DNA of 64,000 nt, taken from NCBI GenBank assembly GCA_004335835.1, contig RWJK01001484.1:1-64000 (forward strand). Reading direction: 5' to 3'. The position numbers were made by a program, and so were the translations under genes. The notes beneath the pieces are model-generated. The model was given only the letters and a program-made list of their open reading frames with translations, was not told the origin of the DNA and did not search any database. The DNA comes from Scenedesmus sp. ARA3. Taxonomy: Eukaryota > Chlorophyta > Chlorophyceae > Sphaeropleales > Scenedesmaceae. Positions 1 to 61,037 of this stretch are shown here, one piece after another (within the stretch, counting starts at the first letter, position 1; each line of letters starts with the position of its first letter).

Positions 1-56
<56 letters not shown>

Positions 57-57
57 G
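1..57 (+). repeat. (CAG)n microsatellite, 19 units
   Basis: Perfect CAG repeat running off the left window edge. Related tracts lie at 160-193 and 291-306, all between the copies of the patatin exon. Confidence 0.97.
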
Positions 58-130
58 AGTTGTACTGCACAGCTCGTGCGCGTCCGGCGGCAGGTACTGC
101 TGCAGGAACTCACACAGCAGCGGGCCCAGC
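55..130 (-). repeat. Patatin-gene exon copy B
   Basis: A second copy of the same exon, with its own AG acceptor at 132-131, codes LGPLLCEFLQQYLPPDAHEL. It is followed by a possible GTGCAG donor at 70-65. A remnant of the same unit tail lies at about 300-330. The copies are separated by CAG repeats, which suggests replication slippage or unequal exchange through the microsatellite. Confidence 0.7.
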
Positions 131-923
131 CTGCAAGCATCAGCAGCACCAGCACCAGCAGCAGCAGCAGCAGCAGCAGTAGCAGCAGCAGTAAGGTGCG
201 CTCGAAGCTCGTGCGCGTCTGGCGGCAGGTACTGCTGCAGGAATTCACGCAGCAGGGGGCCCAGCCTGTGTGGGGCAGCAGCGGCAGCAGCAGCAGCAGC
301 AGCAGCGTTGAGTTGCACTGCATTGCAAGGCGATGGCTGGCAGATAGGAAGGGTAAAACGTGTTGCTGCAGGAACTTTCCCAAATGCAAGGAGCACATAC
401 AGCAATAGCAGCAGCTGCAACGTAGTACACTGCACAGACGGTGCATCTGGCCAGTTAAGTTCATACGAGGGTGGCAGGCAATTGCACTCCACTGCACACC
501 ACCCCACACCAATGGCAGATGCATGCCGCACACCTGTAGCGCGTGCCATTCTTGAGACAGTCCTCGCCAAACTCAATGAGGCTCTTTTCCACCGTCTCCA
601 TGTCAAGACCTGGGGGTGCAGCAGCAGCAGCAGAGGTGCAGTTCCAGTCGAGCTCGTGCTGCATTTCACAACAACAGCGGCTGCCGCACTGCCAAAAGAC
701 AGCACACAATAGCTAGCAGGAGAACGGCAGCTGCTGCTCTGCAAGCAACAGCCATTCTTGGAGCGAAGCCTTGTTGCATGCACTTGCAGCACAGTACAGC
801 TACTCATTTCTCAAAACCACGCTCTACCCTGCGTGCATTCTATCCAGCTGTTGTATGCCTGTGCTGCAGCTGCACTTGACCAGCCACCTCTGATGCTGGC
901 TCTCTCCAATCTATCATCCTCAT

Positions 924-975
<52 letters not shown>

Positions 976-2002: not shown

Positions 2003-2141
2003 ATGTCACCCAACTGCCGCTTTGATGTGCGCTTTCGTACTGTTTAAAAGTAAAAGCATGAACATAAGGGTCTTTTATTCATTTTTCAGGCAGTGCTACG
2101 TCAATTGCGAGCAGTACAGCTCGTTCTGCTGACCCAGTGAG
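2003..2141. promoter_or_regulatory. Short divergent intergenic region
   Basis: Only about 140 bases separate the patatin start from the start chosen for the STPG gene, so a shared bidirectional promoter is likely if both starts are right. No clear core-promoter motif was seen. Confidence 0.35.
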
Positions 2142-3347: not shown

Positions 3348-3395
<48 letters not shown>

Positions 3396-3914: not shown

Positions 3915-3945
<31 letters not shown>

Positions 3946-7619: not shown

Positions 7620-7717
<98 letters not shown>

Positions 7718-9718: not shown

Positions 9719-12700
9719 ATGCACAGGAGGATGCAGGTTAGCAGGCCTGAACAGCCGGTGTGGTGGGCCGAACTCACTGCTTCTGAACGATGGAACGACA
9801 CATGGGTTATACATAGAAACTTTGTACTTTTTTCATTCAGGACCTGTGAAATAAGGCTGGTGTACGGTCACATACTGCCCTGCACACCTTTCCTCCTGTC
9901 AGGTGCTGCGCCTGGCACACGTGCCTGCTGTGCTGTGTCTACTGCTGAGCACTTTCATCAGTTTTCTGGCTCCAGCAGCAGCAGCAGCTTGTGTAGGGGG
10001 CGATCCTGTTGTTACCCCCTGCCCCTCGGCACTTGCTGCTGCTCAGGCCCTCACTGGCAACAGTGCACAGCTGCCAGTTTCAAATGCAGCATTCAGCGGC
10101 GCATGCACCCCGGGCGGCATTGAAGGGATGCTGTTAATCAGCAGCTTTGGCTGCCATCATTTGAACTCGAAAATGCCGCTGGGTGAGCACATCATACGTG
10201 CTGCGCAGCTGCAACGATGGCATGCACAAGCAGTCATTCTCCCCCTGCATTCATGCGCATGCAATGTGGGGCTACGGCACGGCTGAATCTGCAACTGCAG
10301 AAATGCCATATCGACCTCCTGCTATTAAGTATGCGCTGAGGCGAGAAGAAGGCAACGACATCATCAAGCAGCAGCCCAGTTGATAAGGGCAGCAACAGCA
10401 GCCAGTGCAAACACCTTGATGCTGATTAGCACACCTGCAGGGTTACGGCACACCTGGCAAATATACTGCTGCCTTGCTGTGATACTGCTGTTATACTGCT
10501 GCCGCAGGTGCCGTGGTGCTGAGCAATGGCGATGCGCGGATTGGAGCCATCACCAGCAACACAGCGCTGCAGCGGACGCAGGCCCAGGGCACAGGCATTG
10601 GCAGCGATCCAGACCTGCAGGCACTCTCAACAGCAGCAGGCTATTCCCAGGCACTGTGTGATGAAGTGCTGCTGCAGTTTGACGTAACGCCTACTGCCAG
10701 TGGCAACTTGGCTTTTCAGTATGTCTTTGGCAGTGAAGAGTATCCAGACTTTGCCCCGAGCCCAGGTGAGGCAAGCAGTTGTGTATGCACATGCAGGTGC
10801 AGTTGCAGTCGCAAAAGCATCAAACGCTGTCTGCAAGGCTTGGTTGGTGACAGGACTGGGCAGCCGCGGCAGCGACGGACACAGCTGTTCATAAGTGTTA
10901 CTGTGCACACTGCCTTGCATGCTGATATTCAGCGACAAAACTTTCAAAGCGGTGTGTTTGCTTAGGCTGTGTCAGCTGCAGCTGCAGCAACACAGCTGAG
11001 CAGCCATAGCTGTGGCCTGCCCAGCAGCCGCACCACAGCTGCAGCCTGTGCATCTTTTGGGGTGCCATGTTCGAGTCTGTCACTTTTTACTCACCCGCTG
11101 TCCACGCATTTCTCACTGCCGTCACGGTGCAGACTATCCGGATCCATCTCCATACAATGACATATTTGGCTTCTTCATGTGGGAAGACTCCGGGACCCAC
11201 ACCAACATTGCCCTGCTGCCAAACACATCCAGCCCAGTCAGCATTTCTACGGTCAACGCGTTACACAACACCTACTACATCAACAATGATTATGCTTCTG
11301 CAACAAAGGCCACGGAGCTCAACGGGCTCACAAAGCTAATCAAGACAGCGGATTACTACGTCACGGCAGGCACCACGTACCACGTAAAGCTCGCGATAGC
11401 AGATGGCCAAGATGCTGGTATCGATTCCATTGTTTGGATTAGGGTTGGCTCTGTGCGGTTCAATATCAAAGACTGTGTTGGAGCGTGGGTGCCGCATATG
11501 TGGGGTCCGCTGAACGGAACTTGCACAGGGGCTTGTGAGGGAGGCGATGGGCTGCTGCCAGAGGTCTACTTCATCTCTGTTGCTGCTGCCAACGGTGAGC
11601 GCAAGCATGCAATAACTTTCAATGAATGTGACATGCATGCAGCTGCTTTTGCAATAAGCTCTGAGGTTGCCGTCACATCTCATGATCTGTGGCAGCCGCC
11701 GGCAGCCAATGCAAGCGCAACTGCCTGCCATAGGGCATCAAAGTCTTTTCAAACATACGCCATAGGGCGTGCCAGATGCATAGCTGCGTGCAACCCTGGC
11801 ATTTGTTTTGCTGCAAATCTGCCCACCGACACCTGCCTGCTTCTCGACAGGCGGAAATGATTGCCCAACCATCAACGGCACAACACGGCTGTCCACGCCT
11901 TGCAAAAACAACAACCCCTGCCCCGTCAACTGCACTGCCGCATGGGTTAAGACCGGCAACTGCACTGGGCTGTGCTCTGGGGGCAGCGGCTTTGTACCAG
12001 AGGTGGGAAAAGCAAAGCACTGTAGTTGGTGCTGCTGCTGCTGCACTGAGGCACAAGAGCATGCTGTTACAAGCCCATCTTCTAGGGATATGAACAACAG
12101 CAGCGCTGCAACATGACAATTGCAACCTACACCCACTCCAACAACTGTGCTACTGTCTCTGTTTTCTGACCACATGTCACACAGGTGTTTCTGGTTTCAA
12201 GCCCAGCCATGTATGGTGGCAGCTGCCCCAGCACAAATGGCACCACTCGGCTTTCCCTGCCCTGCAACAACACCACGCCCTGCCCTCCTAGGGACTGTGT
12301 TGGCGGCTGGGTGGCTGCTGCTGAAGGCGCCTGCCAGGCTCCTTGCGGTGGCGGCTCTGGCTTGCTGCTGGAGCGGTATGTGGTCAATGTGACGGCTGCG
12401 TACAATGGTAAGTATAATTTGTGCTGATTGTGTGACAGTGTGTAACATATCAGGTGCATGTGGTGGCGGCTATGGCCTGCTGCTGGAGCGGTATGTGGTC
12501 AACGTGACGGCTGCGTACAACGGTGAGCGGCGTTAATAACAAGTTTGTAACAGACCAGCTGCATGTGTGTTGTGTGATACACGTGCCAGCTGCATTCAAG
12601 CTGAAGTTCAGCAAGGAGTATGCAGATGATGAACAGGCATGGAGCTGATGCAGATGCTGTTGTTCAGAGTACTGCAGATGACCATGGTGCCTGATGTTTG

Positions 12701-13561: not shown

Positions 13562-13619
<58 letters not shown>

Positions 13620-19600: not shown

Positions 19601-20806
19601 TTGCTGCTGTTAGCGTTGCTGCACAGCAGTCATGTTCATGGGTGCATGCGCAGCTGCAGCTGTGCACATGCAGTCTTATCACCACTAGAAAGGCAAAACT
19701 TTGCAAGGCTTTGGTGCTGCTGCAGGGCCAGTCGTACTAGGGACTTTGGCAGCGCTTCAGGCTTTGTGCACTTTTAAAACAGCAGCGCCGCTCTGGTGCA
19801 TCATGCATGCATGTCTGCAAAGCTGTGATCCTCCGCTGCTGTTTCTGCTGCTGCTACTGCTGCAGGTCCACGACCAGCTGTAAGAACCCCACCCCATGCC
19901 CCATCAACTGCAGCAGTGCCGCTCCACTGCTGATTGTGACTGCTGCTGCCCCTGCATCCCTGCCGCTGCTGCTGCTGCAGGTCTACCACAACTTGCAAGA
20001 ATCTCACACCCTGCCCTAACAACTGCACCGGCAGTTGGAGCAGCTGGACAAATTGCACCGCACCCTGCGCAGGCGGCAACCACACATCAACCTTCACTAT
20101 CACAGCCCCAGCTCAGCACAACGGCAGTGAATGTGAGGCAGCTAATGGCACGGTTCGCAGCCAGAATTGCAATATGCAGCCCTGCCCTGAAGATTGCTGG
20201 GGCCAGTGGAGTAACTGGACTGAATGCAGTGCAGCATGCAATACCGGCTACCATACTTCATTCTTCACAGTTTACAAAGACAAGGCATATGGAGGAGCTG
20301 ACTGTGAGGCCGCAAATAACTCAATTCGAAACGACAGCTGCAACACGCAGCCGTGCCCTGAGGCTTGTGTCGGTGGCTGGGGGCCCTGGTCAGAGTGCAG
20401 CGCTAGTTGCTGCGGCGGCAGCCGGAGCGCGTCATTTGTTGTTACATCGCCTGCGTTATATGGAGGTGCTGAATGTGTGGAGGCGAATGGCACGGAGCGC
20501 AGTGAAGCCTGCAATCAGCACCACTGCCCCATCGACTGCGTAGGTGAGAGCAGTACACATAAGGGCACGTGTATACATGTTTTAGGTCGCAAGGAGGCAA
20601 GGCTATGATTCACCAGATATTCAGCTGTTCATTGCAGCTCATGCGCAGGTGCTTATTAGCGGCCTGTACCCACCTGCAGCAGGCTAATGGGTGATGGGCA
20701 GGTGAAAAAGTAGCCTACGTTGAAAGATGAATGAAGATGATGAATCATGCAACATGAAGATGACCACACCAAAGATGAATTGGTGTGCAAGTACCAAGCA
20801 TCTGCT

Positions 20807-20862
<56 letters not shown>

Positions 20863-22304: not shown

Positions 22305-22353
<49 letters not shown>

Positions 22354-22688
22354 GCTGCTGCCGCTGCTGCAGGTGTCTATCAGGGGCGTCTTTGTACTGA
22401 CGCGGGAGGAATTAGTCAACAACGTCACAGTGAGTAGCTTACTGGCGAGCACCCAAACCACGCTGTCTGCATAGACAACAGCCGGCTACAAACTGCTTTC
22501 TGCGGCTGGCGATGCCTTGCGCTGCTGAAGACAATGCAATGGAGCCAGAGCATGAAAGCTATTTTTGCAGCTGCATGGAGGATGGCGGATGCAAAAGCAT
22601 CCTTGCATGATCCTGTCTGACAGCGGTGCATACATCCGACACCGCACACGTGCATTGCCAACTGCTGCTGCTGCCGCCGCCGCCGCCG

Positions 22689-22728
<40 letters not shown>

Positions 22729-23694: not shown

Positions 23695-23728
<34 letters not shown>

Positions 23729-25072: not shown

Positions 25073-25108
<36 letters not shown>

Positions 25109-36177: not shown

Positions 36178-36214
<37 letters not shown>

Positions 36215-45127: not shown

Positions 45128-47935
45128 ATGAGCAGCAGCAGCAGGCCGGCGCAGAGCAGCAACAGCAGCCCTGCGCTGCCGGGACAGCAGGGCACCGCAG
45201 CAGCAGCAGCAGCAGCAGAACAGATGCCTGGTCAACGAGGCTGCCTGCCAAGCATGCGGGGCCCCGGGCCGTGGGGCCGCATGGTGGATGGCATCGCCAG
45301 CAGGCTTGCTTTTTTCCCGCCTACGCCGCCATCATACACAGTAGAGGAGCATAAGGATAGCACGGGACAGCTGTACATCCAGCCAGTAGAAAGGTGAGCT
45401 CTACCCTGCAGCGTGCATGTAAGCCTGCACTTGAGCTTTGGCTATGGCGTTTGTAGCAAGCAGCTGCTCTTGGGTGAAGCAGCTGTTGAAGAAGTTGCTT
45501 GCAGGAGGGCTTGGCAGACGGCTGCATCAGCTGAACAGCAGCACAGCAGCGTCGTGCAGAAGCGCTGTGTTGCGAGAGCTATGCAAAGCTGTTGAGCGGG
45601 CGTTTTCACTTCACCTCACGCTATAGGATGGCCGGCTTTCAGCAGTCATTCTTCTTGACGGTGGCAGCAGCAGACGAGCTTCTGTGAGTGTCTGGCATTG
45701 AGCCTGTGTGCACCGCGTGCTCTCTGCAGGGGCTACCAGCGAGTGCCATCTGCGCGTGTGCACTGGCTGCAAACGGAGCAAGGCAACCGCATCATTACAG
45801 CATTCGTGCCATTCTTTGATGGCAGAGGGACCATGGCGCGCCTCACCATTCTGTACAGCCACGGCAATGCAGTGGATCTGGGGCAGATGCTGCCTGTGTA
45901 CAGGTGAGCAGTGATGCAAGCACAAGCAGCTGCCTGGCAGTCGACTGTTGCATTTGACCTAGGGCAGATGCTGCCCGTGTACACACGAGCAGTGACGTCA
46001 GGACACCCGGCAGTTGCCTGACAGCAAATTCACCAACTTTCCTCGAGGCAGCTGCAGGCTGCAGCCAGCACACCACGAAGCTAGCGCTGCTTCTTGTATT
46101 GTATCGAGGCCTAATGCTGCCTGATGCTGCCTAATGCTGCTTCATGTTGTAATGTGGCTTGCAGGGACTTAGGGCGCCTGCTGCGTGTGAACGTGATGGG
46201 CTATGACTACACTGGGTACGGCTGCTGCAGCAGCAGCGGCGGCCCCAGCGTCACAGCCACCTGCAGCGATGTGGCAGCAGTGCTGACCGGGCTGGAGACG
46301 CTGCACGGCGTGAAGCGCAAAGATGTGGTGCTGTACGGGCAGTCGGTTGGCTCGGGCCCCACAGTGAGTTTATTGGACACTCAGCAGCAGCAGCAGCAGC
46401 AGCAGGCTGTGTGCATTGAATGCTTGCACGGCTGGCATGCGCTCTGGCAACATGGGCAGTTGGTCGGCGCATGCCCCACAGTCAGGGCAGCCAGCACCTC
46501 GCAGCAGCAGCAGCAGCAGCAGCACAAATTGACTGCTGCCAGGCCTTTCTGGCAATGCATGCAACATACGTGTGCATGCTGATGATTGAGGCGCAACAGG
46601 AGCAGCAACGGCGAATTCTGATGCACATGGGTGCTGAAAGTTGCTCATGCTATTCTGTCGCTGCTGCCACGTGCTCGCAGGTGTGGCTGGCATCACAGCG
46701 GCCAGGCGTGGCAGGAGTAGTGCTGCACTCGCCGATGCTGTCTGGCGTGCGCGTGTTCAACCCCAACCTCAAGTACTGGTGAGCGCAAGTGCACCGCATA
46801 TTTCCAGCTTGGCACGCCTGCTCTTGCACTATCCCAACCTCAAGTACTGGTGAGCGCAAAGCGCAAACTCTTGAAGCTGGCAGTTCTGCTGGGAACACCT
46901 GCCGCTGGAACTCCGACGCACGACAGCAGACACAGAGCGTAGGTTGCCAGCAGCGTACATAGCGGGCATTTGTTCAGCTACATCACCTGCAGCAGAGAGC
47001 ACTTTGCAGGCTGCATGGTGCTGAATGGTTGTGCTGCTGCTGTTGCTGCCGCTGCCGCTGCAGGCCCGCGTGGGCGGACATCTACCCCAACCACCTGCTG
47101 GTCAAGAAGGTGGACGTGCCGCTGCTGGTGCTGCACGGCACCGCGGACGAGGTGAGAGGCTGTAACCAACCCAACACGTGCTTTTGTGTGGCAGCAGCGT
47201 TATGCAGTTTTGGCAGCTGTCTGGACTGCTCGGCCTTCAACAAGTGACGCTGTAACTCGCTCGCCTACATGTTGCAGGTGTTGCTGAGCCAGCTCCTGTG
47301 TATCACTACTTTTTTGACTTGTAACCACTGACCGGGGACATGGGTGGATGTCCATGGATGTCAAACATGGATGTAAACATCGCACTAGGTTTTGGGTACG
47401 TACCTGCACCACGACCTCTCTCGTAGAGGGCGCTGTGTATGCTGCAGGCTCCAGCTGTGTGCAGCATAATCACGTTTGTTCTGCGCTGCTGCCGCAGGTG
47501 GTTGATGTCAGTGCAGGCCGGCGGCTGGCTGAGCTGGATGATCCACTGCATCACTGCATTCTTGGCTTCAGCTGTAACCGTATGTGCATGTGTTGCTGCT
47601 CTTGGTTTCAGCTGTGTGCGGCATGTTTATGTAGAGCCTGCCTTGCTGCGCTGCTGCCGCAGGTAATTGATGTGAGTGCCGGCCGGCGGCTGGCTGAGCT
47701 GGCGCCTGTGGCAGTGCTGCCTGTAACCGGCTTGAGCTGCGAAATGAATGCCTTTTTTGCGACACATGTGCTGCTGCCGCAGGTGATTGATGTCAGTGCA
47801 GGCCGGCGGCTGGCTGAGCTGGCGCCTGCTGCAGTGACGCCGCTGCTGGCGGAGGGCTTTGACCACCAGAACCTGGAGGCCTGCCCAGAGTACCTGCCGC
47901 GCTTGAAGGAGTTCCTGCAGCAGCTGCAGCAGTAG
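45128..47935 (+). CDS. ABHD17-like alpha/beta hydrolase
   Basis: Serine hydrolase of the ABHD17/Bem46-like group. Animal ABHD17 proteins remove palmitate from proteins at membranes; the substrate here is unknown. Exons: 45128-45393, 45730-45903, 46165-46363, 46681-46778, 47064-47151, 47783-47935. Phases join, giving 325 residues, the usual family size. Key parts: oxyanion region ILYSHGNAVDLGQM, MGYDYTGYG, nucleophile elbow GQSVGSG (Ser207), LHSPMLSGVRV, then LHGTADE (Asp274) and EGFDHQNLE (His303). The whole triad is present. The N-terminus is Ser/Gln/Ala-rich and lacks the Cys cluster by which animal ABHD17 proteins are lipidated. Exon edges are copied in introns at about 45957-46000 (end of exon 2), 46825-46855 (end of exon 4), and 47498 and 47663 (starts of exon 6). 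Confidence 0.94.
47490..47830 (+). repeat. Three tandem starts of the last hydrolase exon
   Basis: Edges at 47498, 47663 and 47783, each preceded by CTGCTGCCGCAG and coding V(V/I)DVSAGRRLAEL. Only the last runs to the stop codon. All three acceptors leave the same phase. Confidence 0.9.
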
Positions 47936-48666
47936 CAGCGGCAGCGGCAGCGGTGCTTATGAACAAACAGATGGCGTGTGTTTCCTTGAGGCTTGCAGGG
48001 AGTCAATCAATTGGATGCTTGGTGAGCAACGCTGGTCGCCAGCGCCTGCAGGACGCCAGCCTTTGCAGGACAGAAGCATTTGCAGGATGCAGCTCTTGCA
48101 CGGCGCCAGCTTTTGCAGGTTGCAAGCTCTTGCAGGATGCAAGCTGTTGCAGGGATTGTCAGTGCCTGTGCTGTGCTGTGCTGTGCTGTGCTGTGCTGTG
48201 CTGGTTGGGTTGGGGTGCTTCTGCACTGTCGCCTGGCCTATGGCACACAAGGTGTGCGACTGTGCATTTGTACGGTTGCTGCCATCAGTGTTGCTGTATG
48301 ATATATTGGAGGCTCGGCATCGGCCGTTGACTGTACTGCGTGTGCAGCTTCTGCACGTTCCAGAACGTGGCCTGCATTGTGTTTGGTTTGAGCACCGCAC
48401 GTTGCTGAACAAGCGTTCAAACAACCATATTGCAGCGCGTGTCCTATGCACATGCTGTTGTGGCACACACACCACAACAGCGTACACAGGACAACTTAGG
48501 CAGTGCTGACCCTGATGTGAGGCATACCTTTTGTTTTGGTGTGTTTGTGGCTGGGTGTGTTGCCGGGGTTTCGCGCCAGCCGAGACCTGGCGTGTGTTCC
48601 AGCATGCTAGACTTGCAGTCCTGCTCTAGCTGCCATGACATCTGCCTCCTTCAAGGAAGGCCTTTT

Positions 48667-48709
<43 letters not shown>

Positions 48710-49600
48710 TCAGCTCAGTGAGCGGCTCACCATGCGCCATTGGTGGGGCTACTACCAGCATTGATACACTGTGTCAGTTGAGCAGGAACACCCGTGTGTT
48801 TGGCAATCAAGTGGTTGTGTGGCATTTTCCTTGTAATGCGAGCACTGGTAGGGGTGCTGTGCCCTGATCCCAGTGCTAGTGGGTTGCGGAGGCAGCTGTC
48901 CTCCAGCATGTACTGCCTGGTGTACTACTCTTCCAGTGTCGTTTGTTGTTCTTGATGATGTTACGTGGTGCACAGCTCCAGCCCATTCTGAGGTACGTGC
49001 TTCTGCCTTCTGCAGCAATGCCAGCTGACTGACCTTGTAGCCCTGTGCTGTACGGGTGACAAGAAGACATCTTGTCACTTGTTGATCAATCATCATGATC
49101 AAGTTGTCGATCAATGGGCTTTTGCTCCTATCACATGCACAGTTGTCCTGCTTCGGCCAGTCATTCACTATGGGATTACGTTTTGACAGTCAGGGTGGCG
49201 ACATTCCAAACTCAGGATGTGCTGTGGTGGCTGGCAGTATAGGCCATCTTGGCATGATGACCATGGCATGATCAGGTCACGGCTCTATGCGCACTGCTCC
49301 CAGAGGGTTTGTCTGCTGTGTGAGTTGCTGTAGTGCTTGCAGTCTAACAGCAAATGGTTTTAACCCCTTTTCTTAGCGTAGCGCGCGTCCTTACACTGGG
49401 AACTGCAAATATTTCTGCGAAGTGTGTGCTGTCATCGTGCTGAGGGTTCAGGTCAGTGGAACGTCAACTTCTGCCTGCTCCGCATGAATGTATTACACCG
49501 CAGCTTGCACCTGTATAGTTTGTGTGCTGCTTACGCTGCTTGCTGACTGTGTCTCGATCTTGACAAGGAGCACTTCAAGCACCAGCAACTGTGCAGCATC
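47936..49600. other. Intergenic with short tandem repeats
   Basis: Plus strand is T/G-rich, like plus-strand 3' flanks. Contains related GCAGGATGCAAGC/TTGCAGG units at 48045-48155, a TGTGC pentanucleotide run at about 48165-48203, a CAG tract at 48670-48709 and a TGTAA at 48832-48836 that could end the hydrolase transcript. No gene was recognised. Confidence 0.5.
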
Positions 49601-50879
49601 ATGCAGCTCAGCAAGCAGTCTGTAAGCATGCGGTCGAGGACCAGCAGCGCTCCTCGTGGGCGCTCGTGCGTCTGCAACACCCATACGAGGCAGGCGCAGC
49701 AGGCTAGGAGCTTGTTGAGCATTGCTCAGCAGCAGCATCCTTCGATGGTCGCAGCAGCTGCACAGCAGAGAAACCTTGTCGTTGCTGTGGATCATACTGA
49801 AGGTGAGCGACAAGGAAGCTTGCATGCCCACTTAGGAACTATCTACAGTAGTCGCGCGCTGAAACAGCGCTGCTGTTTGGGCAGTATGCTGGCTTGCACA
49901 CGACATAATAGTCGCAATAAACCGTCGCTTTTCGCATGTTCAACGGCACTAGGAGTGCTCGGGGTGTGACGCGGGCACTGTAGTAGCAAGCTAGTAGCAA
50001 GGGCGGACGCAGCGTCTCGGACTTGCGACAGTCCGCTCAGCCGCGTATATGTTTATCTAGAGTTTTTTCATTGTTGATATCTGCACGGGATGTGGCAGCA
50101 TCACTGCATAGGCAGCATTGAGTACTGATTCTGCTGCACTGTCCTGCATATCTGCACAGGTTCCTACAAGGCCCTGAAGTGGACGCTGGAGCACCTGTAC
50201 CGTGATGGGGACGTGCTGCACCTGCTGCACGTTGTGCCAGCGGCCAGCTCGGTGACCTGCTGTGGCGGGTTTGACCTGGCCAGCACACTGCCACCTGAGG
50301 AGGTGCGCTAGACAGCTTTGCAGCACAGCTCGTAGCGCAGCTGGCATGAAAGCACGAGGGCCTGAAAGCAGTTTAGGGGAGCTTGCCAACATGTTGCTGC
50401 CCACAACCACTGTGCTTATACCTTTCCTGCAAGCCTCCTGCAGCCAAAACAGGCGGCAGTAGCGAAGCAGAGAACACACTGATGGCTGTGCCGCATCTTT
50501 CTCCAGCATGGTTGACAATGGTCGATGTATCTGCATCTGTGGTTTCTGCTGACGCTGATTGTCCTTCTCTTCACCCTTTTCCGCACCACAGGGCCTGCAG
50601 GAGAGCATGGCAGCACACGCTATCGAGTACTTTGCACAGTACATGCAGCTGGCGCGCAAGCACGGCGCAGATTGCGAGCTGGACTTGGTGCACGGCGCAT
50701 GCAACCAGACAGTGTCCAAGGACATCTGCAGGAAAGTGGAGGAGCTGTCGGCTGCTGTGGTGGTGCTGAGCGAGCAGAAGCAAGGCTTTATCGAGAGCAT
50801 CTTCATGCAGACACCAGTCACGCAGCACGTGGTGCAGAACTGCAGCAGGCCCACGCTGGTGCTCAACCACAACGCGTGA
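49601..50879 (+). CDS. Universal stress protein (UspA) family protein
   Basis: Small alpha/beta UspA-fold protein of 210 residues. Exons: 49601-49802, 50160-50302, 50592-50879, with phases 1 and 0. After about 50 Ser/Arg/Gln-rich residues the domain begins with NLVVAVDHTE, continues through SYKALKWTLEHLYRDGDVLHLLHVVP and ends with VVVLSEQKQGFIES, then TQHVVQNCSRPTLVL, matching the family order. The glycine-rich ATP loop of the MJ0577 type (GxxGx9G(S/T)) is absent; SEQKQGFIES stands in its place, so nucleotide binding is doubtful. The N-terminal extension could target an organelle. No exon-edge copies were seen here, unlike most neighbours. Confidence 0.9.
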
Positions 50880-53303
50880 GGTGATGCAGCAGCTGCTGCT
50901 GCTGCATTTGCAACAAAGGGGCGTGCGTTGTGGGTGAGCTAGACAGCAGAGGGTGTGTGCGTGATGCACGATAACGCGTGGGTTGTTCATGTGCTGTTGT
51001 TGCACAGCCACTTTTGCTGACAAGGCACATACAGGGCAAATATCATTTGTGGACTTAGCAGTATGTCGTGCACTTGCTTCAACAGCTGGTTGCAGCCAAT
51101 GCGGCTGCATGGCTACCATAATGTCGGCAGCATTGCTGCAAGCCACAGCTTGCTGCTGCGCACAGCACAACACGCTTGCTGTGGTCCGTCGTGGCTGTGT
51201 TGTCACTCAGTGCAGAAGGCTTCTTCTGCTGCTGGCCAGGGGCAAAAGAGGGCGTGTGTGTTTCAATGAGCAATGGCTGCGAGCCAACCTATCACCTGTT
51301 CATTACTTGTTATTCTCGTGATATACAACAAAGCGCACCCAAGGGCTCCCGCACAAGGGTTGGGTCGCGTGTTTTGCATGGCTGGTCAGTTGTTTTTGCC
51401 GTGGGCGCCGCGTGCCGTGCACGCGTGCCTTGCGTTCCTTTTCACAGCTGAGATGCCGTGATGATGTTGTGGCGCCGCCGTTTGTCGTTCCCTGCTTGCG
51501 CCCCGTGCGCAAGCGCTGTTTACCACCTTTGGAAGTACCCTGTTTGACTGTGTTCATAGTTGCTTTGGCTTCAGCCTACATGCAAGGTCACAAGCAAGTC
51601 TACAAGCAAGCAACCGCATCCGTGTGGTGCTTGCTTGGCACCTGATGTATTCAATGCTGCCCAAGGTTCTTGTCACCATGCGTGCGTAGTTTTTTCGCCT
51701 CTTGCATGCATTGCTTGCGTGTGTTTTTAGGCTTGCTTGCGAACACAGCAGCAGTGCATGGGTGTATGTTTGTGTGTGCCTTTAGTAGCGGGCAGCATGC
51801 GGCAAAGCGCTGCTCAGGCAGAGCTTGTGTCTGTGCCGCTGGTGTATCTAGTGTATTAGTTCTAGTGTGCATGTTCATGTGGTGTGTGTCCCTGCAGTAC
51901 GACAGTGCTTCAGCAGCATGCGCAAGCTGTCGCATGTCGACTGCTGCATTTGTTAGTTTGGGCTGCTTCCTGCCAAAATGTATGTTGCAGCAGTGGCTTG
52001 GCTTCTCGCGGCAGGGCGAGCAGTGGAGTGTACCATAACAACTTGTCGCCGTTATGTCTCCAGCGAGAGCGGGCGCTGTTCGTGTCATGTATGGCAGCAG
52101 CGGAGGTGCAGGGCAGCAGCTTTGTGTGTGCAGGATGGGTAAGCAGGTTGAGGGCCTGGCAGTGCACACTTGTCAAGTTTGCTGCATGTGACGCCGTCAC
52201 ATGTACCTCCAGAGCGCCGCTGCCGCTGCACTGCCCTTTGTGGATTAGAAGTACTGCATTTTGTTTGGTGTGGCTGCCGCTGCCAGCCAAACAGACATTT
52301 GTATGTTATAGCGCAACGCAACGCATACTACTGCAGGGACTTTGCGGCAGCTGAGCAGCCAGAGCAACGGCTTTGTGCTTGCTAGCTCCGCGCGTGTGTT
52401 GCATGCTGCCAGGGCATGCTGAAGGATGCTGTGTTTGGTGGGCCTGTGCACACCTGGCTTGTTTGTTTCGTTTGATTGTTGCCTCCCCAGGCATTACTAG
52501 TGTGTTGTGGCACCATGCAAATACTATGCTTTGTGCATGCAGCATGGTTGATAAGCAGGCAGGATGCAACGGGTGCTGCCATACCAGGCTGGCGGCGTGC
52601 TGTGTCGTTGCTTCTCAGGCCATGCTGCATGTGTACTTGCGCATGTTGCGACATGTCGACTGTTTTGGCAGGTTGACGCTGAAGTGCAACGCACTGAAGC
52701 AGTTGAGTGAATACTGACGCAGCACAGTGCCATATGTGTGTGACGGAAGAGGGCACCGTTTGGCATATGGTGGCTGCGGTTACACTCGGCATTTTTGTGT
52801 TATGCCATCGCGTAGGCAGTGGTGGAGGTCAGAGCGGCCGGTAGCTTGTGCAAGTTTTGACTGGTTGTTGTTTTGATGAGGTGCATTTGTGTGCCTCGCT
52901 GTGCAGTGCAGCGCGTGGGCGGAAGCGAAGATCAGCTGCAGAAGCTGCAGGGTTGTACGTCATATCCAGTGGAGGGAGGGAAGTGTGCTGTTTGGAGTGG
53001 TCCAGCAAGGGTATGGTGATCACTGTGCTTCTTCAAGTCTTCTCGTCTGGTCTGGTCCGGGATTAGTGCACTGCACTTCATGCCACCTTTGACACAAGCA
53101 GTTATGCAAGCTCCTGCCCAATCACTCCGGTGTCAGGTTTTAGGCGAACCTCGCATTTGCAGCACTGTTCCCACTGGTGGTTAAAGAAGCACAGACCGAC
53201 TGCTGCTGATCAATCGATGCAGTGATATACACGCTGACAACACGAAGTTGACAGTCTGTGGCCATCAGCGTTTCGCTGCCTGCACCTCCCGCACACCGTT
53301 CAC
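50880..53303. other. Intergenic, no gene recognised
   Basis: Plus strand stays T/G-rich with many TGTGTG and GCTTG stretches, as in 3' flanks and introns of plus-strand genes here. Open frames are short and without family features. Confidence 0.5.
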
Positions 53304-54509
53304 ATGAAGCTCCAAGGCAGCATCGTGATTTGTTTAGCTATGATGATGGGAACAGCTGCTGCGCAGTTCGTTGCACCCGCCTTCTACAAGGTAGGGCTCC
53401 AGCAGCTGCAGCGGAGTCGGAAGTCCATCAGGCTAGGGGCAACGGGTGCATCTCCTGCGCATTCGCGCAGTTCACGCACATCAAACACCCATCTTGTCAA
53501 GCACATGCGTGATTAGCCGCAGTTCAGGGTGGCATCTGGTGTTACTGGCAGCTGCAAGGTGATTGGTGCATGCATCCTCTCACACACATGTTTTTGCTGC
53601 ATCATTATTTTGCAGGGCCTGGAGGGCCCCAAGTTTACAGTGCTGAAGAAGATTGGGGACAACATTGAGCTGCGCCGATATGAGCCTGGTGGGTGCACAG
53701 CAGCTGGCTGCAACAACCAGCCAACAGCAACTGCTGTGTGACCTGTGGCAGCAGCAGTGGGCTGGTCTGCCTTTGCCTTCTCCTTTCTGCATTCAACCAA
53801 GGCGAGCTTACATTGCTTGGTAGTAGAGAGGAGTTTTGCACCGTGACTGTGTCACGAATGTCATGGCTGCACAAGCAGCAGCGCAACTGACAAGCGGCAC
53901 AAGGTTGGTGCTGGTCTCAAGCCTGCTCCCCAGCACATGCTTTCTCGGCCCCTGCAATTATAAACATTGGCAACGAACCGCGCGGTGCTTCACTCTCAAT
54001 CATGTGTGCTGCTGCTGCCGGATTCACAGGCTCCTGGGTGTCCATCAAGCGCGAGGGCATGCAGCTTGACAGCGCCATGAGTGGAAGCTTCATGAAGCTC
54101 TTCGGCTACATCAGCGGCGGCAATGCAGCAGGCGCAAAGATTGAGATGACCGCGCCAGTGCTGACAAAGGTAAGTGGCATTATCTCAGCAAGACCGGGGT
54201 TCACCTGCCCCTGCCAGGGGTGCAGCTGCCAATGCTGATGCAGCTACAATTGCTCAGGCAGAGACATCTGCAAACGCTCAGGCGGGCTTGCTGTCCCAGC
54301 TTCCGTTGCATCAGCACAAATGTTACTTGGTAGCCCTGGTGTTGGCAGCAGGCCTCCTTCAGACGCCTTTTTGGCAGCTTCGCCTGGGCGCAGTGGATGG
54401 CATGTGGCCTCTGCTGTTGAATGGCAGAGGTAGTTAGCTGGTAGCTGCGGTGACAAATGCATGCCCTGCCATATCTAGCTGTACCACTGTCATCAGCCTA
54501 ATCACTCGC

Positions 54510-54551
<42 letters not shown>

Positions 54552-55622
54552 AGGTGGTGCCTGGCCAGGGTCCCACCTGTGAGAGCCAGTTCACCATGTC
54601 TTTCTACAACCCCTGGAAGTACCAGGTGGGCTGGGGCATGCTTATGGCCCTAGGTTTGTGTTTTGCGTCTGTGTTTCAGCAGCCTGTTTACATAACGGTG
54701 ATGCGGGTGTTGCTGCAGGTCCAGCAGCGCAGGTTAGTGTTTCGGACGGAGCCGGGCCTCCCTGTGTGGCATGTGCTGCTTTGTTGTGTCTGTCTGCTGT
54801 TATTGTCTGCGCATCCTGTCACATGCTACTGTAATCACCCACCCTGTTCAGTGCAGCTGCTTATTGTCTGCCTTCTGTCTTCTTGCTTTCCTGCTGCACA
54901 CATCATTCCACCCGCACCTTGCAGTCCGGCGCTGCCCCTAAGCCCACAGATGCCAGCGTGTTCATCAACAACGTGCCAGCCATGGACGTGTACGTGCTCA
55001 GCTTTGGCGGCTGGGCCAACGAGGCAGCCTACAAGACGCAGGCCGCTGCCCTGATGCAGAAGCTCAAGGCTGAGAAGCTGCCCTTTGACAGCAGGTGCGG
55101 TTGACTGGCTTATATGAACGCTTTTTTGACTGAAGCTTGCATACCTAGGCAGCCGCAGCCCTGATGCAGAAGCTCAAGGCCGAGAAGCTGCCCTTTGACA
55201 GCAGGTGCGATTTTGTGACGTATCGAAGGTTGATCAAGTGGTGTTTGACTGGCTGTTGAGGATGTGTTAATTGAAGCTTGCATCACTCGGCAGCTGCAAA
55301 GCTTATGCAGAAGCTCAGATGGGGAGCTGGCTTCAACAACACAACTAGAACACACCGCGGCAGCTTGCGCGCAAGGTTCTTGAAACTGACGAGTATATGC
55401 CAGACTGCATGCCATGACTCGCGGTGTACAGCAGCCTTCCGATGAAGCGTTCAAGATTCTTCTCTGCCGCTGTTTCTGTCCTGTCCTTGCAGCCACTGGT
55501 TCACTGCCGGCTATGACAGCCCCTACACCATGGCCAACCGTCGCAACGAGGTGTGGGTGCCCGCAGCAGCAGCACCAGCAGCAGCAGCAGCGAAGGCCAA
55601 GCCTGCTGCCAGCGGCCACTAA
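53304..55622 (+). CDS. SOUL heme-binding-type protein, secreted
   Basis: SOUL/HEBP-family protein of 223 residues. The family binds heme or porphyrins. Exons: 53304-53390, 53616-53688, 54030-54169, 54554-54625, 54925-55094, 55493-55622; all phases join. A signal peptide (MKLQGSIVICLAMMMGTAAA) is followed by the domain: GPKFTVLKKIGDNIELRRYEP, SFMKLFGYISGGNAAGAKIEMTAPVLTK, then MSFYNPW and FINNVPAMDVYVLSFGGWA, and YTMANRRNEVWV. KIxMTxPV is the family hallmark. The last about 20 residues are Ala/Lys-rich. The secretory signal means it acts in the ER, a vacuole or outside the cell. A (CTG)n tract (54517-54553) forms the end of the third intron. The coding end is triplicated (see repeats). Confidence 0.94.
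55147..55320 (+). repeat. Copies of SOUL exon 5 end
   Basis: 55147-55204 repeats the last about 60 bases of exon 54925-55094 with its CAG/GTGCG donor. A third, broken copy lies at about 55290-55320. Confidence 0.88.
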
Positions 55623-55691
55623 ATTTTGCAGCAGCAGCAGCAGCAGTGTTGCAGGCCAAGCCTGCTGCGAGTGGCCACTAAATTGTGAGCT

Positions 55692-55726
<35 letters not shown>

Positions 55727-55762
55727 GGTGGTGCAGGCCAAGCCTGCTGGGAGCGGCCATAA
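55595..55762 (+). repeat. Three copies of the SOUL C-terminus with stop codon
   Basis: GGCCAAGCCTGCTG, then GCGGCCACTAA-like sequence, with TAA at 55620, 55679 and 55760, separated by (CAG)n. The first copy is in frame. The others are in the 3' UTR unless alternative splicing reaches them. Confidence 0.9.
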
Positions 55763-57246
55763 AGCTGTGAGCAGCAGCAGCAGCAGCAACAGCAGTTGTG
55801 ATGTGCTGTCAAAACTTGCTGCGTGGCTCACCAGAGGAGGGAGTTGCTGAGAGAGGTATGCACATACTAAATGCTTGATGGATACATATGCATCTGCACT
55901 CAGTGCAGAGCTTTGGAATGGATGTGCTGAGTTGAGTCGAGGGGCCATGTGTGACAAGTTGTGTAGCTTCCTGGTTGGCTGATTATCTGGCTGCCTGTGC
56001 TGCTGCGTGGTGAGTTGTCAGTGTGAGGGAAGTCTGGTGCTGTGTAGTATGCTTGCTCGATGATGCCATCATGTGTCACGTGCAGACGGCCTGGCAATTT
56101 GGAGGGTTGTTGCGTGCTTGTACTTTGGGCGCAGACTTTGGGCTGACCACTTGAATCCTGTTCAGTTTGTATTTTGTACTGGCATGCCTCCTAAGTGTCT
56201 GATTGCATTCAATCGTATTTACATGTTGTCCATGTCAAGAATCAAAAGTTGTTCATGCTGTACTCAACCACAGGGGGGGTTGCTGGGCAGGGAGAGCAGA
56301 TGACGGTCTTGGAGCGCGTTAGGGTTTGCAGTGTGCGCCATGCCAAGCATGCCAAGCATTGTTTTGCAGTGCTCCATGCCAAGCATGCCAAGCATTGTTT
56401 TGCAGTGCTCCATGCCAAGCATGCCAAGCATTCTTTTGCAGTGCTTCCGGAGCAGTGCCAAGCATGCCAAGCATTGCATTGAGCTGAGCACGCCAAGCAA
56501 GTCAAGCTGTGCTCCATGCCAGGCATTGCAGTGTGCCGAAGCTGCTCAAGTGCGGTGCTCTGTGGGAACTGGTGGGGTGAAACCGATGTGCTTGACGTTG
56601 TGCTTGTTATTTCTGAGCGACACCTGTGGCAGTTGCAGCCTGTGGCAGTTGCAGCCGGCAGAGGAATAAACATGTGGAGCACAGGTGTAACATCACTGAT
56701 GCGCCAGGTTCATGCTATGTCTGGTTTGGTCGATTGCTGATACTGCAGGTAACGTTGTACGCATGCCTTCACAGCAGCAGCGCGGCCCGCATCACTCCGC
56801 CAGGTTCAGCACCCCAGCTGCTGACAGGCTCATCAGCACGAAGCACAGCAGCATCAGCAGCGTCATAACAGCCCGGAAGTGCTGCTGACCCCTCGCCTTC
56901 TGCAGCGAATGGCTCAGCAGCAGCCTGCAAACAGTGGATCTGAAAGTGCCAGACAGCATCTTGTCCCATCACCCGCCCAGCCTGACTAGCCCCAGCTGTT
57001 GATGCAGTTCATTTACTCCGCTAAGTTCAAAACCCCAGCTGCGGACAGGCTCATCAGCACAAAGCACAGCAGCAGCAGCGTCATAACAGCCCGCAAATGC
57101 TGCTGACCCATCGCTTCTGCAGCGTATGGCCCAGCAGCAGCCTGCAAATTTGTTTGAACAGTGGATCATGTCAGTGAAAGCGCGTGACCGCATCTTGTCC
57201 CATCACCTGCCTAGCCTGACCAGCCCCAGCTGTTGATGCAGCTGAT
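55623..57246. other. Convergent intergenic region
   Basis: The SOUL gene's 3' flank extends to about 56700, with a block of about 36-base repeats (ATGCCAAGCATGCCAAGCAT) at 56338-56480. From about 56770 the sequence belongs to the permease gene's 3' side, with two copies of its coding end. No further gene was seen. Confidence 0.55.
56686..56690 (+). terminator. Candidate poly(A) signal TGTAA
   Basis: Chlorophyte-type TGTAA lying just before the plus-to-minus switch in strand bias near 56750. Likely 3' end of the SOUL transcript, on position alone. Confidence 0.4.
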
Positions 57247-57300
57247 TTACTCCGCTAAGTTTAGAACCCCAGCCGCGGACAGGCTCATCAGCACAAAGCA
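56792..57300 (-). repeat. Three copies of the permease C-terminus with stop codon
   Basis: Stops at 57247-57249 (TAA), 57013-57015 (TAA) and 56792-56794 (TGA). Each copy carries about 100-130 bases coding FRAVMTLLML(L)CFVLMSLSAAGVLN or close variants. Period 221-234 bases. Confidence 0.92.
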
Positions 57301-60300
57301 CAGCAGCATCAGCAGCGTCATCACTGCCCTAAAGTGCTGCTGACCCATCACCTTCTGCAGCGAATGCCCCACTATCAGGCCCGCTGCGCCACAGCCTGCT
57401 GCAGCAGCATAGAGCCAGCGGTCCGACCAGCGCAGCATGCCAAACATGTAGTAGCCAATGAGCTGGTCTTGCACCATGGCCATCACTGCGTTGGTGCCGC
57501 GCACGGCGCTCTTAGAGGCGTTCAGGTAGGCGTACATCAGCATCATAGGGGGTCCTGATATGCCTGCAAGCAAGGCAGCAGTGTCAGCAGCAGAGCAGGG
57601 AGCAGGACTTTCGAGATGGGCGTGCATGAGCATATTAGGGGTCCAAGGACAAGGAGCAGCAGCAAAGAGCTAGCCTGAAAAGCAATGCAGGATGCTGCGG
57701 TGCACTCTTGGAGGCGTTGAGGTAGGCGTACATCAGCATCATTGGTGGCCCTGATATGCCTGCAAACCGAGACAGCAGTGTCAGCAACACAGCAGGCAGC
57801 AGCACTTTTGAGATGGGGGTACATGAGCATAATAGGGGGTCCAGAGATGCCTGCAGGGACGAAGGAGCAGCAGCAAAGCACTAGCCTGAAAAGCGATGCG
57901 GTGCACTCTTGCAGGCGTTGAGGTAGGCGTGCATGAGCATCATGGGTGGCCCTGATATGCCTGCGAGCCAGGAGAGGGCGGAGTGAGCAGAATGGGACAT
58001 CTCAACCGCACACAGGTTGCAGTTATAATGGTGGGTTGCTGGTGTGGCAACAAGCAGCTGCGTGCAGCGTGTGCAATCTGCATGAACGTCTTCCTGCAAT
58101 TGTGGTACTGCTACATTGCACACATGCATCTGTGGGTCCACTGAGTGTGCCATTCCTGCATTTGAGGCCGCACCTGTGGCTCCCCCCAGCAGGCCTGTAG
58201 CAAGGCCTGCTACAGCTCCGATTGCAAACAGGCCCCAGAAGCTATGCTTCAGCATTGCCTCTTCACCCTGAATTTCATCCTCCCCATCTGACTGCGACTG
58301 TGTGCTTCCTGCATCAACGTCATCATCACCTCCGAGTTGAAGCACCAGTGCGTCCTCTGCAAGTGCCTCCATCTGCAGCTGGCGGTTGTAGTGATCTGAT
58401 GCTGGATGATCTGTTAGATCTGTTACATCTGAGTACAGCAGTGGTCTGCAATCTTCTGTATTCAGATCTTTATCTTGAAGCAGCACTGCACCATCAGTGC
58501 AGTGCTGCTGCTTGTGGCTGGGGTGGCGCATGTGTCCTGCATGAACAACAGCGGGTAAGCCATGAGAGATGCAACGTACACGACTGCACAGGGCAAATGC
58601 ATTGCGACCAGCTGTGCAGTGCTGCGTCTGCTGAAAGTACTACACAGGTACAGCTACAACAAGTGCATGAATGCCAGCAACATAGCAGTCATGGACCAAC
58701 CTGATAATCACAACCCCACAGCAGGTCTCACAAGCAGCAGCACTATTTCTAGTTCAGCACTCACCCTCTGCTCCATCAGCGCCGCCACCACTTGGCAGTG
58801 CATCATCAGCAGAGTCATCGCTGCTCAGAAAGCCGAGCAGCGAGCCGTCGCTGAAGTCACAATCATTGAAGATGTATTCAGCACCCTCGTCAGCGAGCAG
58901 CGCCAGCCGCAACTCGCTGCTGCTGTCTTCAGATCTGCAAGGTGTGTTGGGCAAGCGCAGTCTAGGTATCAGGAGGCAGAGCAACAGTGTTGTGACCTGA
59001 CACAGTAGTAGTGCCACACATGACACAGTAGTGGCGTCAGTGACGTACAGCAATGCTGCGCTGTTGCAACGACAGGCAATTGCCTGCCTTTGTGACAGAT
59101 GCTGAGAAAGCACCAGCACCAAGCAGCGCCAGGCACAACGCTGCCATACAGGCTCTTCAGCGTCACAGTGAGAACTACTAGCCGCACCCTTATTGCTCAC
59201 CTGACATCAGCTTCACTGCACTCCTTGCACTGCCACCCGCACGCTCCTCCATCATGCCTACAGCTGCTGCCAAGCCACCACTGCTTTAGCCCTTGACACC
59301 AGGCCAGCAGCTGCTGCCTGTTCAAGAGCAGCATCAGTGACAGCATCAGTGCTGCCACCACGGCTTCCAGCTGCCGCGCTGGCAGCAGTTTCAGGACAAC
59401 TGCCCCCAGCGGAGCAGCAATGGCCTGCACAACAGAACAGGGGTGGCTCAGCATAAGCAGCTGCAGACGTTTGCAAAGCGTCCAATAGGTTGGGCCAGCA
59501 CAGCTCGACTGATGGTGTGCTGTGTGGCACATCATGTACAGCAATGCCTCAGCCGGCATCCAGTTAAGCCTGCTGTTGTAATGCTATTATGGCAGCTGCG
59601 CTGGTCATCCCCATACCGTGCAGCCGCCAGTTCACTATCTTGCAGTTGGTTTTGGAGATGGCCAGCGGCCTCACGGTTTATGAACTGACTGATTAAGAAG
59701 CGACAGCTGCTGAAATCTAAACCACGCAGCAGTTATGTTACCTTGCAGAGGAGTATGGAGATGGCCAGCGGCCTCACGGCTTTTGCGCTGATCAATATAA
59801 CAGCTGCTGAAACCTAAACCACGCAGCAGTTCTGTTACCTTGCAGAGGGGTATGGAGATAGCCAGCGGCCTCACGGCTTTTGCACTGATCAATATAACAG
59901 CTGCTGAAACCTAAACCACGCAGCAGTTCTGTTGCCTTGCAGAGGGGTATGGAGATGGCCAGCGGCCTCACGGCTTTTGCACTGATCAATATAACAGCTG
60001 CTGAAACCTAAACCACGCAGCAGTTCTGTTACCTTGCAGAGGGGTATGGAGATGGCCAGCGGCCTCACGGCATGCTTGGTGGCGTTTGCGAGGAAGAAGA
60101 AAGGTATCATGCTGATGGTCATGCAGCAGCTGCAGGCGATCACTGCAAGTTTCAGCGGGCCTGCAGCAACAGGGGAAGTGGGTGAGGTGCTTGTGAACGA
60201 AATCATTTTATTTCATCAGTCATTGCCGCTGACGCACTGTCTTCATCATATGGATTGCAGGATGCACTGATATGGACCATGCTGCACTCTGAACGCTTGC

Positions 60301-61037
60301 AACCTGTTGTATTGTCAGATGGTGAAACGCACCTGCATTGTACCCCAGCGCTCCAGCTATGCCCCAGACACACAGGTGGATGATGGCAGTGCCAAAGCCA
60401 CATATGCCCTGCAGCGCATTGTCAAGTAGTGGACACGACGTGGACATACCATATGCATTATCTGAAAACAGTGCACAATGCCTTTAACCAAGGGTTCATG
60501 TGCATAATAGTCAGCAGAGCCGTTTCAAAGCCACAGCCAAACATGCTGTACCTATGCCGTTATCTGCCAGTGCAGGTGTCTGCTCAACTGGCAGCAGCGC
60601 TGCTAGCGCCTTCAATTACCAATTACCAAAGTAGGGCCTCAGGCCCACCCACTAAGGAGCCAGACAAGGCTCATGGGGTCCAAGAACATCGAGAAAGCAG
60701 CCTTATCCAATATAATCTGGGAGAAATCCAGAGCAAACAGCACACACTGTGGTAAGCGGCATCCACTGCACCCATCATCAGCACCAGCACACAGGCCCGG
60801 CAGAGGACACCACTGCCATGTCCTGTCAGTTTTTGCTGGGTGGAATTTATGAATTCCTGTGCTCACCATAGCAATGCTTCCCAAGAAGAGGCCTGTGCTG
60901 AGGATGATGATGGTCTCCAGTGAAGGCGGGCCCCCTAGGCCAGCATCTGCCACCATGACAGACAGCAGCTGCGCGCCTTGGCTGCTGCCAAACAGCAGAT
61001 GCTGAAGCCACTGCATCGCTGCGGATACGCCATCCAT
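57247..61037 (-). CDS. TauE/SafE family membrane permease
   Basis: Member of the TauE/SafE (TSUP) family, which moves sulfite, organosulfonates or related anions across membranes. Exons on the minus strand: 61037-60867, 60408-60333, 60160-60033, 59424-59201, 58934-58765, 58536-58174, 57563-57247; all phases join, giving 482 residues, the usual plant-type length. First half-repeat: FLGSIAM-GICGFGTAIIHL, then AVIACSCCMTISMIPFFFLAN, then VVAALMLSLMLLLN. A long acidic loop (about 200-345, rich in Asp/Glu/Ser) should be cytoplasmic. Second half-repeat: AIGAVAGLATGLLGGATG-GISGPPMMLMYAYLNASKS, ending with LLMLLCFVLMSLSAAG. Its divergent neighbour is a sulfatase, which fits but does not prove sulfur handling. 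Three separate exon edges are copied in tandem. Confidence 0.93.
57560..57965 (-). repeat. Four to five tandem starts of the last permease exon
   Basis: Edges at 57960, 57850, 57759 and 57563, each after a CAG and coding GISGPP(M/I)MLM(Y/H)(A/P)(Y/H)L, plus a remnant near 57605-57640. Only 57563 continues to the stop. All edges have the same phase. Confidence 0.92.
59640..60075 (-). repeat. Five-copy, ~97-bp array carrying an exon end and donor
   Basis: The unit on the minus strand is GTGAGGCCGCTGGCCATCTC, then CCCCTCTGCAAG/GTAACAGAA, then shared intron sequence. Unit positions are near 59661, 59763, 59861, 59958 and 60054. Only the highest-coordinate copy follows the exon body (60160-60033). 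Confidence 0.93.

Follow-up and report, generated by a model that had tools for sequence, protein, structure and literature searches.

Introner elements place one family at many sites and are known in algae as intronic repeats tied to splice sites, and alternatively used duplicated exons are copies of whole exons with two splice sites. The DNA considered here is a 64,000-nucleotide stretch of the green alga Scenedesmus sp. ARA3 (contig RWJK01001484.1, positions 1 to 64,000; referred to as the window), which belongs to an assembly of 87.27 Mb in 1,567 contigs (GCA_004335835.1). Many introns of this alga hold exon-edge arrays, in which one splice site, the edge of the exon and the flank of the intron are copied directly beside their source. 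This is the layout of a junction-crossing tandem duplication, and the closest described case is the RdRp gene of potato (Ma, Lan and Niu 2016, PMC4974935). As far as the accessible text of that report goes, intron end and exon start form a unit in direct tandem, as here, which includes the branch site, the pyrimidine tract and the 3' splice site; the case is one gene and one event and was read as the gain of a new intron and exon. Unlike the potato gene, the alga shows copies of acceptor as well as donor edges, often several per edge, at 43 of 114 junctions, and they appear to be intron for the most part. Intron gain by AGGT duplication (the Rogers model as related in the accessible part of PMC4974935, with Drosophila cases in that of PMC2891723) is likewise silent, because splicing removes the extra copy. 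It differs in that the algal arrays enlarge existing introns, with units that span an existing junction and need no new intron position. Introners and the algal arrays both present many splice-linked intronic repeats, but in the alga each junction has a separate family. Duplicated exons share with the arrays the presence of exon-derived copies in introns, whereas in the alga one edge only is copied, with exon heads upstream and exon tails downstream. Duplications from break repair (PMC8355091) are short and direct and arise without repeats or homology, and are a possible source of the algal units; a pile-up at exon edges is not described in the accessible portion of that paper. Among the papers listed by searches of the open PMC literature, which leaves subscription papers aside, we found single cases and the AGGT model, and no genome-wide edge arrays. 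Compared with known junction-crossing tandem duplication, what is new is the extent and the regularity.

Exon-edge copies in adjoining introns

Models of seven genes were based on Tetradesmus obliquus proteins; three of the genes lie in the window (TauE/SafE-like, ABHD17-like and sulfatase) and four, all chaperonins, on other contigs (CCT1, CCT2, CCT5 and CCT6). The proteins were retrieved with exon-translation queries and aligned to the DNA with splicing by a script; since the script favours GT-AG, the GT-AG intron ends are no independent finding. The CCT1 protein read at its locus (L033, a chaperonin found by domain search) is identical to T. obliquus P0001 at 480 of 483 residues, and, judged from protein sequence, the alga is a close relative of T. 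obliquus, or T. obliquus itself. In CCT5 an annotated exon of 45 bases (b) at L034:8074–8118 was counted as a copy, and for the last TauE exon the open frame as far as the stop was used instead of the annotated splice. The start of the first exon is undefined in CCT2 and approximate in CCT6, and for both first exons the donor sides alone were used.

In the junction test, the 60 b of exon beside each junction were sought in the adjoining intron. A copy is present at 43 of the 114 junctions (24 of 57 acceptors and 19 of 57 donors), and the copies number 91 in total. Five of the seven genes are affected, including two of the three modelled in the window. The junctions with copies are 17 of 22 in CCT1, 13 of 22 in CCT5, 8 of 16 in CCT2, 3 of 10 in ABHD17, 2 of 12 in TauE, 0 of 20 in CCT6 and 0 of 12 in sulfatase. 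The same edges matched the intron on the other side of their exon 6 times in 100 (the wrong-side control), other introns of the same gene 7 times in 892, and shuffled introns never. The polarity is consistent; exon-head copies lie upstream of their own exon and exon-tail copies downstream. In eight arrays picked by hand and aligned, donor copies are followed by GT and intron, and acceptor copies come after intron-type sequence and mostly AG. With copies on either exon end, this geometry leaves only the innermost copy adjoining the exon body, so that it alone can be spliced as a full exon.

Repeats were also counted without gene models. The window was split into eight pieces for self-comparison, with near-tandem direct repeats counted and CAG-type runs excluded, and yielded 30 clusters that occupy 12.8% of its bases. 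A further 24 loci (237,887 b) gave 4.1 clusters per 10 kb and 12.5% of bases, so the window is typical. Shuffled sequence gave no clusters in either set, and near-inverted repeats numbered 0 or 1 per locus. The 24 loci were chosen by hand with even contig numbers; of these, L009 borders on the window and L029–L032 continue earlier loci. One locus, L030 (C845:25001–35000), is mostly N, with a guanine-plus-cytosine content (GC) of 0.13; it is counted in the self-comparison and omitted from the statistics on period, CAG/CTG tracts, GC, dispersion and splice-site scan. For the window and the remaining 23 loci, the smallest repeat period has a median of 128 b (interquartile range 113–166, 123 clusters) and falls within 100–140 b in 62 of the 123 clusters. 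Across the 23 loci the density is uneven, with a variance-to-mean ratio of 3.2, and falls with GC (rho −0.47, P 0.02).

An annotation-free scan found 123 splice-like sites of score at least 10 in the first members of the 123 clusters, against 68.2 ± 7.7 in random intervals of these loci, which cover exons and intergenic DNA as well. At a score of at least 12 the numbers are 54 and 25.8 ± 4.9. The site is also kept in the copy in 40 of the 123 clusters at the lower threshold and 17 at the higher, and in window clusters with a period of 60–300 a site of score at least 8 is kept in both copies in 15 of 26. Among loci found by domain search, clear overlapping partial exons were seen by eye in 3 of 11 CCT/Cpn60 loci (one more is doubtful) and 2 of 10 HSP70 loci, and few in kinesin and adaptin matches; this method is insensitive, as the CCT2 locus gave 0 by eye and 8 of 16 junctions by DNA. 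A domain search with the three minus-strand frames of 48001–58000 returned no families. Exon-edge arrays are a true, genome-wide and uneven feature of this alga.

The preliminary description of the window had reported tandem copies of exon edges in at least seven of ten genes, with periods mostly of 90–130 bp, at both kinds of edge and at coding ends with stop codons, and had inferred a local duplication process other than whole-exon duplication or introners. As to the share of genes, two of the three in the window that have a model are affected. The junction test and its controls, the measured periods, the acceptor and donor counts and the near absence of inverted repeats all agree with the core of the description, chance being excluded by the controls, a stop-codon array is found at TauE (below), and the enrichment at splice-like sites extends beyond the window. 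The genes of the window and their arrays are as follows.

57250–61037, minus strand: TauE/SafE-like gene, relative of T. obliquus OEZ86_005261, from spliced alignment of P0241
60867–61037, 60333–60408, 60033–60160, 59201–59424, 58765–58934, 58174–58536, 57250–57563, minus strand: TauE exons, the last an open frame
59636–60071, minus strand: array of the TauE exon 3 donor edge, made of exon tail and GT, with the real edge and four copies
60033–60071 (real), 59936–59974, 59839–59877, 59742–59780, 59639–59676 (copies), minus strand: members of the TauE exon 3 array, period about 97–103
57506–57989, minus strand: acceptor-edge array of the last TauE exon (AG plus exon head), real edge and three copies
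57563 (start of real exon), 57702–57759, 57808–57850, 57903–57960 (copies), minus strand: members of the TauE acceptor array
56794–57371, minus strand: TauE coding-end array including the stop codon and following bases, three copies
45128–47932, plus strand: ABHD17-like hydrolase gene, from spliced alignment of P0242
45128–45393, 45730–45903, 46165–46363, 46681–46778, 47064–47151, 47783–47932, plus strand: ABHD17-like exons
45868–46024, plus strand: donor-edge copy of ABHD17 exon 2 (real edge ends at 45903, copy at 45949–45983)
46762–46859, plus strand: donor-edge copy of ABHD17 exon 4, a weak match (real edge ends at 46778, copy at 46816–46849)
47481–47836, plus strand: acceptor-edge array of ABHD17 exon 6 (copies at 47498–47537 and 47663–47721, real exon from 47783), period about 120
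61544–64000, plus strand: sulfatase gene, relative of OEZ86_005260, seven exons in the window, from spliced alignment

Three further candidate arrays come from the sequence pattern only.

24047–24557, plus strand: donor-edge-like duplication, two copies, period 263, donor-like site at 24133 kept in the copy
31605–32154, minus strand: acceptor-edge-like array, four copies, splice-like site kept in the copy
40211–40526, minus strand: acceptor-edge-like array, three copies, period 116, no above-threshold splice-like site

The TauE open frame ends at 57250 with the stop codon directly beyond, and T. obliquus P0241 aligns at its end by a splice into a copy of the TauE coding end. The sulfatase gene has no edge copies at its 12 junctions inside the window and serves as an internal negative. 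Two copies of the 31605–32154 array share little outside the exon-like part. The donor-like duplication at 24047 overlaps the end of long open frames at 20724–24133 (plus strand), which by eye suggest a cysteine-rich, extracellular protein containing a membrane span. The segments 12263–12575 and 16492–16739 lie 4.2 kb apart, are about 70% alike and each hold their own tandem pair of about 107–115 b; they are perhaps tandem paralogues with arrays, helpful for dating copies. At 42601–43072 a 24-b repeat with about 19 copies and seven minus-strand acceptor-like sites stands beside a coding sequence that appears by eye to be of ankyrin type.

Divergence of the copies

For identity, substitution and indel analyses, 81 of the 91 copies were kept (at least 25 b of exon, touching the junction). 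In 69 pairs of decoys (copies compared with each other) the exon part is 0.886 identical and the 60-b intron flank 0.635, with unrelated flanks at 0.42–0.49; the exon part carries 0.42 gaps per 60 b and the intron flank 4.16. The identity of the exon part levels off at about 0.87 even where the intron flanks are as diverged as unrelated introns. AG or GT is intact in 70 of the 81 copies. The intron flanks are rich in CTG and CCCTAAA-type motifs and may simply evolve faster.

Copies differ at 20.0% of four-fold sites, 9.8% of first positions and 7.4% of second positions. Changes common to several copies are nearly all synonymous (34:5), as expected if they arose in the constrained exon, and single-copy changes are 132:142. 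A second count of copy-private changes gave 66 synonymous (S) and 81 non-synonymous, where 42.8 S would be expected (P 5e-5). Within the exon part 12 indels shift the frame and 2 preserve it, a frameshift appears in 16 of 81 copies with another aligner, and an in-frame stop in 1 of 69 indel-free copies. Coding constraint on the copies was considered from the low dN/dS-like ratios and rejected, as frameshifts prevail among the indels and copies drawn from a constrained exon would have a similar ratio. The four-gamete test is failed by 14 of 21 informative site pairs, with about 64% expected under free exchange; these failures are few, and recurrent mutation could give the same result. The simplest account is that the copies do not code and that exchange with the exon, or renewal from it, maintains their likeness.

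Intron length and splice-site strength

Intron length tracks copy number (rho 0.82, n = 57 introns). The median intron is 263 b with no copies (27 introns), 385 b with one (7), 626.5 b with two or three (12), 734 b with four or five (7) and 927 b with at least six (4). Edge-array spans account for 12,797 of 28,196 intron bases (45%) in the seven genes. The mean intron of T. obliquus is given as 462 b, against 230 in Raphidocelis, 302 in Monoraphidium, 284 in Chromochloris and 270 in Chlamydomonas (Table 1 of PMC5966456, from its accessible part).

Splice-site matrices were built from the 57 donors and 57 acceptors of the gene models and applied to the 82 junction-touching copies (38 donors, 44 acceptors). 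Median scores are 9.6 for copied and 10.4 for real donors, 9.2 for copied and 10.9 for real acceptors, and about −3 for intron background; 16 of 38 donor copies and 14 of 44 acceptor copies outscore their own real site. Both the longer introns and the decoy splice sites anticipated in the preliminary description are therefore seen, the copied sites scoring a little below the real ones. Two CCT1 proteins, P0001 and P0002, have 547 amino acids (aa) and no copy sequence; P0002 occurs only on contigs of at most 1,853 b, shorter than the gene, and is therefore probably transcript-derived. Because copied sites are near real strength and the CCT1 proteins lack the copies, position must matter. We infer that splicing picks the acceptor and donor closest to the exon body, in keeping with exon definition.

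Some database proteins contain peptides that fit copies. In P0003, another model of the CCT1 locus in T. obliquus, the extra VLESGSVVP fits the copy at L033:8691–8750, read via a cryptic acceptor at 8723 and the copy's own donor. In P0134 (CCT5, 551 aa) a 15-aa stretch is repeated and matches the translated copy at L034:8074–8118 in 13 of 15 residues, and two of the algal CCT5 relatives listed, P0174 and P0193, have 536 aa. P0003, P0134 and P0241 are database predictions, not reads, and their copy-like stretches could be annotation errors or minor isoforms.

Two observations concern the chaperonin genes. CCT6 (L035) has copies at 0 of 20 junctions and CCT1 at 17 of 22 within one complex, and the density of repeats is similar between adjoining loci, which may point to a regional cause. 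In CCT1 intron 11 (L033:9417–9488), a piece of the exon 11 tail, 4 b and a piece of exon 12 follow each other in mRNA order, neither junction being included.

Proposed origin of the arrays

On balance we favour a mechanism in which frequent short tandem duplications survive where they cross one junction, the innermost pair is spliced, and the exon edge keeps the copies alike as the intron parts decay; this mechanism is likely, not proven. Short tandem duplications would be frequent in the genome, about half of them at 100–140 b. A duplication within an exon or over a whole exon would alter the mRNA and be lost, and one over a single exon–intron junction would be harmless as long as the innermost acceptor–donor pair, touching the exon body, stays in use. 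Outer copies would then turn into intron, and as arrays reach several copies the intron would lengthen. The real edge is under selection and so would not decay, which would make it a lasting partner for its copies in gene conversion or unequal crossing over. Such exchange would preserve the likeness of the exon part and the splice dinucleotide, whereas the unit's intron part, often rich in slippage-prone sequence, diverges.

As to the chemistry, short direct duplications can come from break repair without homology, with overhangs of about 43–50 b according to the accessible text of PMC8355091. Breakpoint microhomology followed no clear rule in young duplications, among only 12 rows. The preliminary description had proposed gene conversion or slippage helped by CAG/CTG tracts. 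Gene conversion finds weak support in the four-gamete failures, which recurrent mutation could also produce. Help from the tracts was not borne out; they are touched by 19 of 123 clusters against 38.0 ± 5.0 under random placement, a count that the simple-repeat filter and low-complexity masking lower. A few young units are bounded by CAG/CTG tracts (L025, window 32828). In the seven models, triplet motifs number 54 in 5' and 194 in 3' intron halves for CTGCTG, and 76 and 38 for CAGCAG. Telomere-like motifs number 65 and 19 for the TTTAGGG type, and 3 and 50 for the CCCTAAA type. A TTTAGGG/CCCTAAA pairing of intron ends was considered on this polarity and rejected, as the motifs occur in few introns with no co-occurrence beyond chance.

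Several points weigh against this mechanism. The heterogeneity among genes, from 17 of 22 junctions in CCT1 to 0 of 20 in CCT6, is unexplained. With ancestral introns of at least 180 b, random duplication and survival overpredict intron-only arrays, and targeting or differential persistence would then be needed. An exon edge lies in 43 of the 45 clusters of the gene models, and slower decay of the exon part explains part of this. The evidence for exchange consists of 21 site pairs only. In a paired test copied acceptors are slightly weaker than real ones (P 0.001), and donors not clearly so (P 0.06).

Duplication might instead be targeted to exon–intron junctions, for example through DNA breaks or nicking at structures linked to transcription or splicing, beyond mere selective filtering; we hold this to be unlikely. 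The edge share of 43 of 45 compares with 52% predicted by random duplication and survival with today's copy-free introns, under a null in which duplications survive if wholly intronic or across one junction. An edge is also present in 20 of 22 full-unit arrays, the other two overlapping copies from the junction test, and the density is regional, with adjoining loci at 7 and 8, 0 and 2, and 2 and 1 clusters per 10 kb. The null depends on ancestral intron length, giving 95% edge arrays at 100 b, 85% at 130, 70% at 180 and 54% at 263. It fails at 180 b or more and suffices at about 100–130 b, so the edges need not be targeted. Detection moreover favours conserved exon parts. When exon-derived parts are masked, 7 edge and 5 intron-only clusters remain, which does not differ from the null. 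Of the five, three belong to CCT2 edge-array clusters and a fourth begins where CCT1 exon 9 ends, so that counting again would shift the balance towards edges, in a small sample. Given the masked count and the dependence of the null on intron length, 43 of 45 is not taken as proof of targeting, though targeting may play a part.

It is more doubtful still that the copies are functional, with selection retaining edges as splicing decoys, splicing regulators or alternative mini-exons. Intact dinucleotides (70 of 81), the private S excess (66 against 42.8) and the in-frame peptides in two database proteins (9 aa in P0003, 15 aa in P0134) would fit such a role. The S excess (omega about 0.5), however, would equally arise if neutral copies had left a constrained exon at different times. 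Of 14 indels in the exon part 12 shift the frame, another aligner shows a frameshift in 16 of 81 copies, and two of the seven genes do without copies.

Introners are very improbable, as is intron gain from a duplicated exonic AGGT segment, although the AGGT model, as the accessible parts of PMC4974935 and PMC2891723 present it, also rests on tandem duplication beside splice sites. The copies are junction-specific, and the same element at many positions was not found within genes (7 of 892). The unit is one splice site with its own intron flank; the eight aligned arrays and the wrong-side count (6 of 100) gave no sign of an exonic AGGT unit or of an intron start resembling the following exon. 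The same wrong-side count speaks against tandem duplication of whole exons, with both splice sites and copies on either side. An assembly or sequencing artefact is hardly credible. The divergence between copies is about 11% over the exon part and much greater over the intron part. P0003 and P0241, whose annotation lies on 4.4- and 5.7-Mb contigs against 43 and 92 kb here, both carry sequence from these copies, which are thus present in another assembly too.

Implications

Edge arrays are a non-transposon source of intron length and lengthen genes. They also form a natural experiment on splice-site choice, with 82 junction-touching copies that match the exon over up to 60 b in five of seven genes, and which copy gets spliced is a direct test of exon versus intron definition. 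They may supply new mini-exons, and they call for caution in gene annotation, as T. obliquus database proteins already carry peptides that fit edge copies. More tentatively than the mechanism favoured above, introns may grow outward from their exons and renew themselves. The conserved edge would be a permanent template that sheds and refreshes copies, splice site included; the spliceosome would tolerate dozens of near-identical competitors per gene by using the innermost pair (exon definition), and an occasional copy would become an in-frame mini-exon. If true, this would add a way for introns to grow and exons to arise that is separate from transposons, introners and AGGT duplication.

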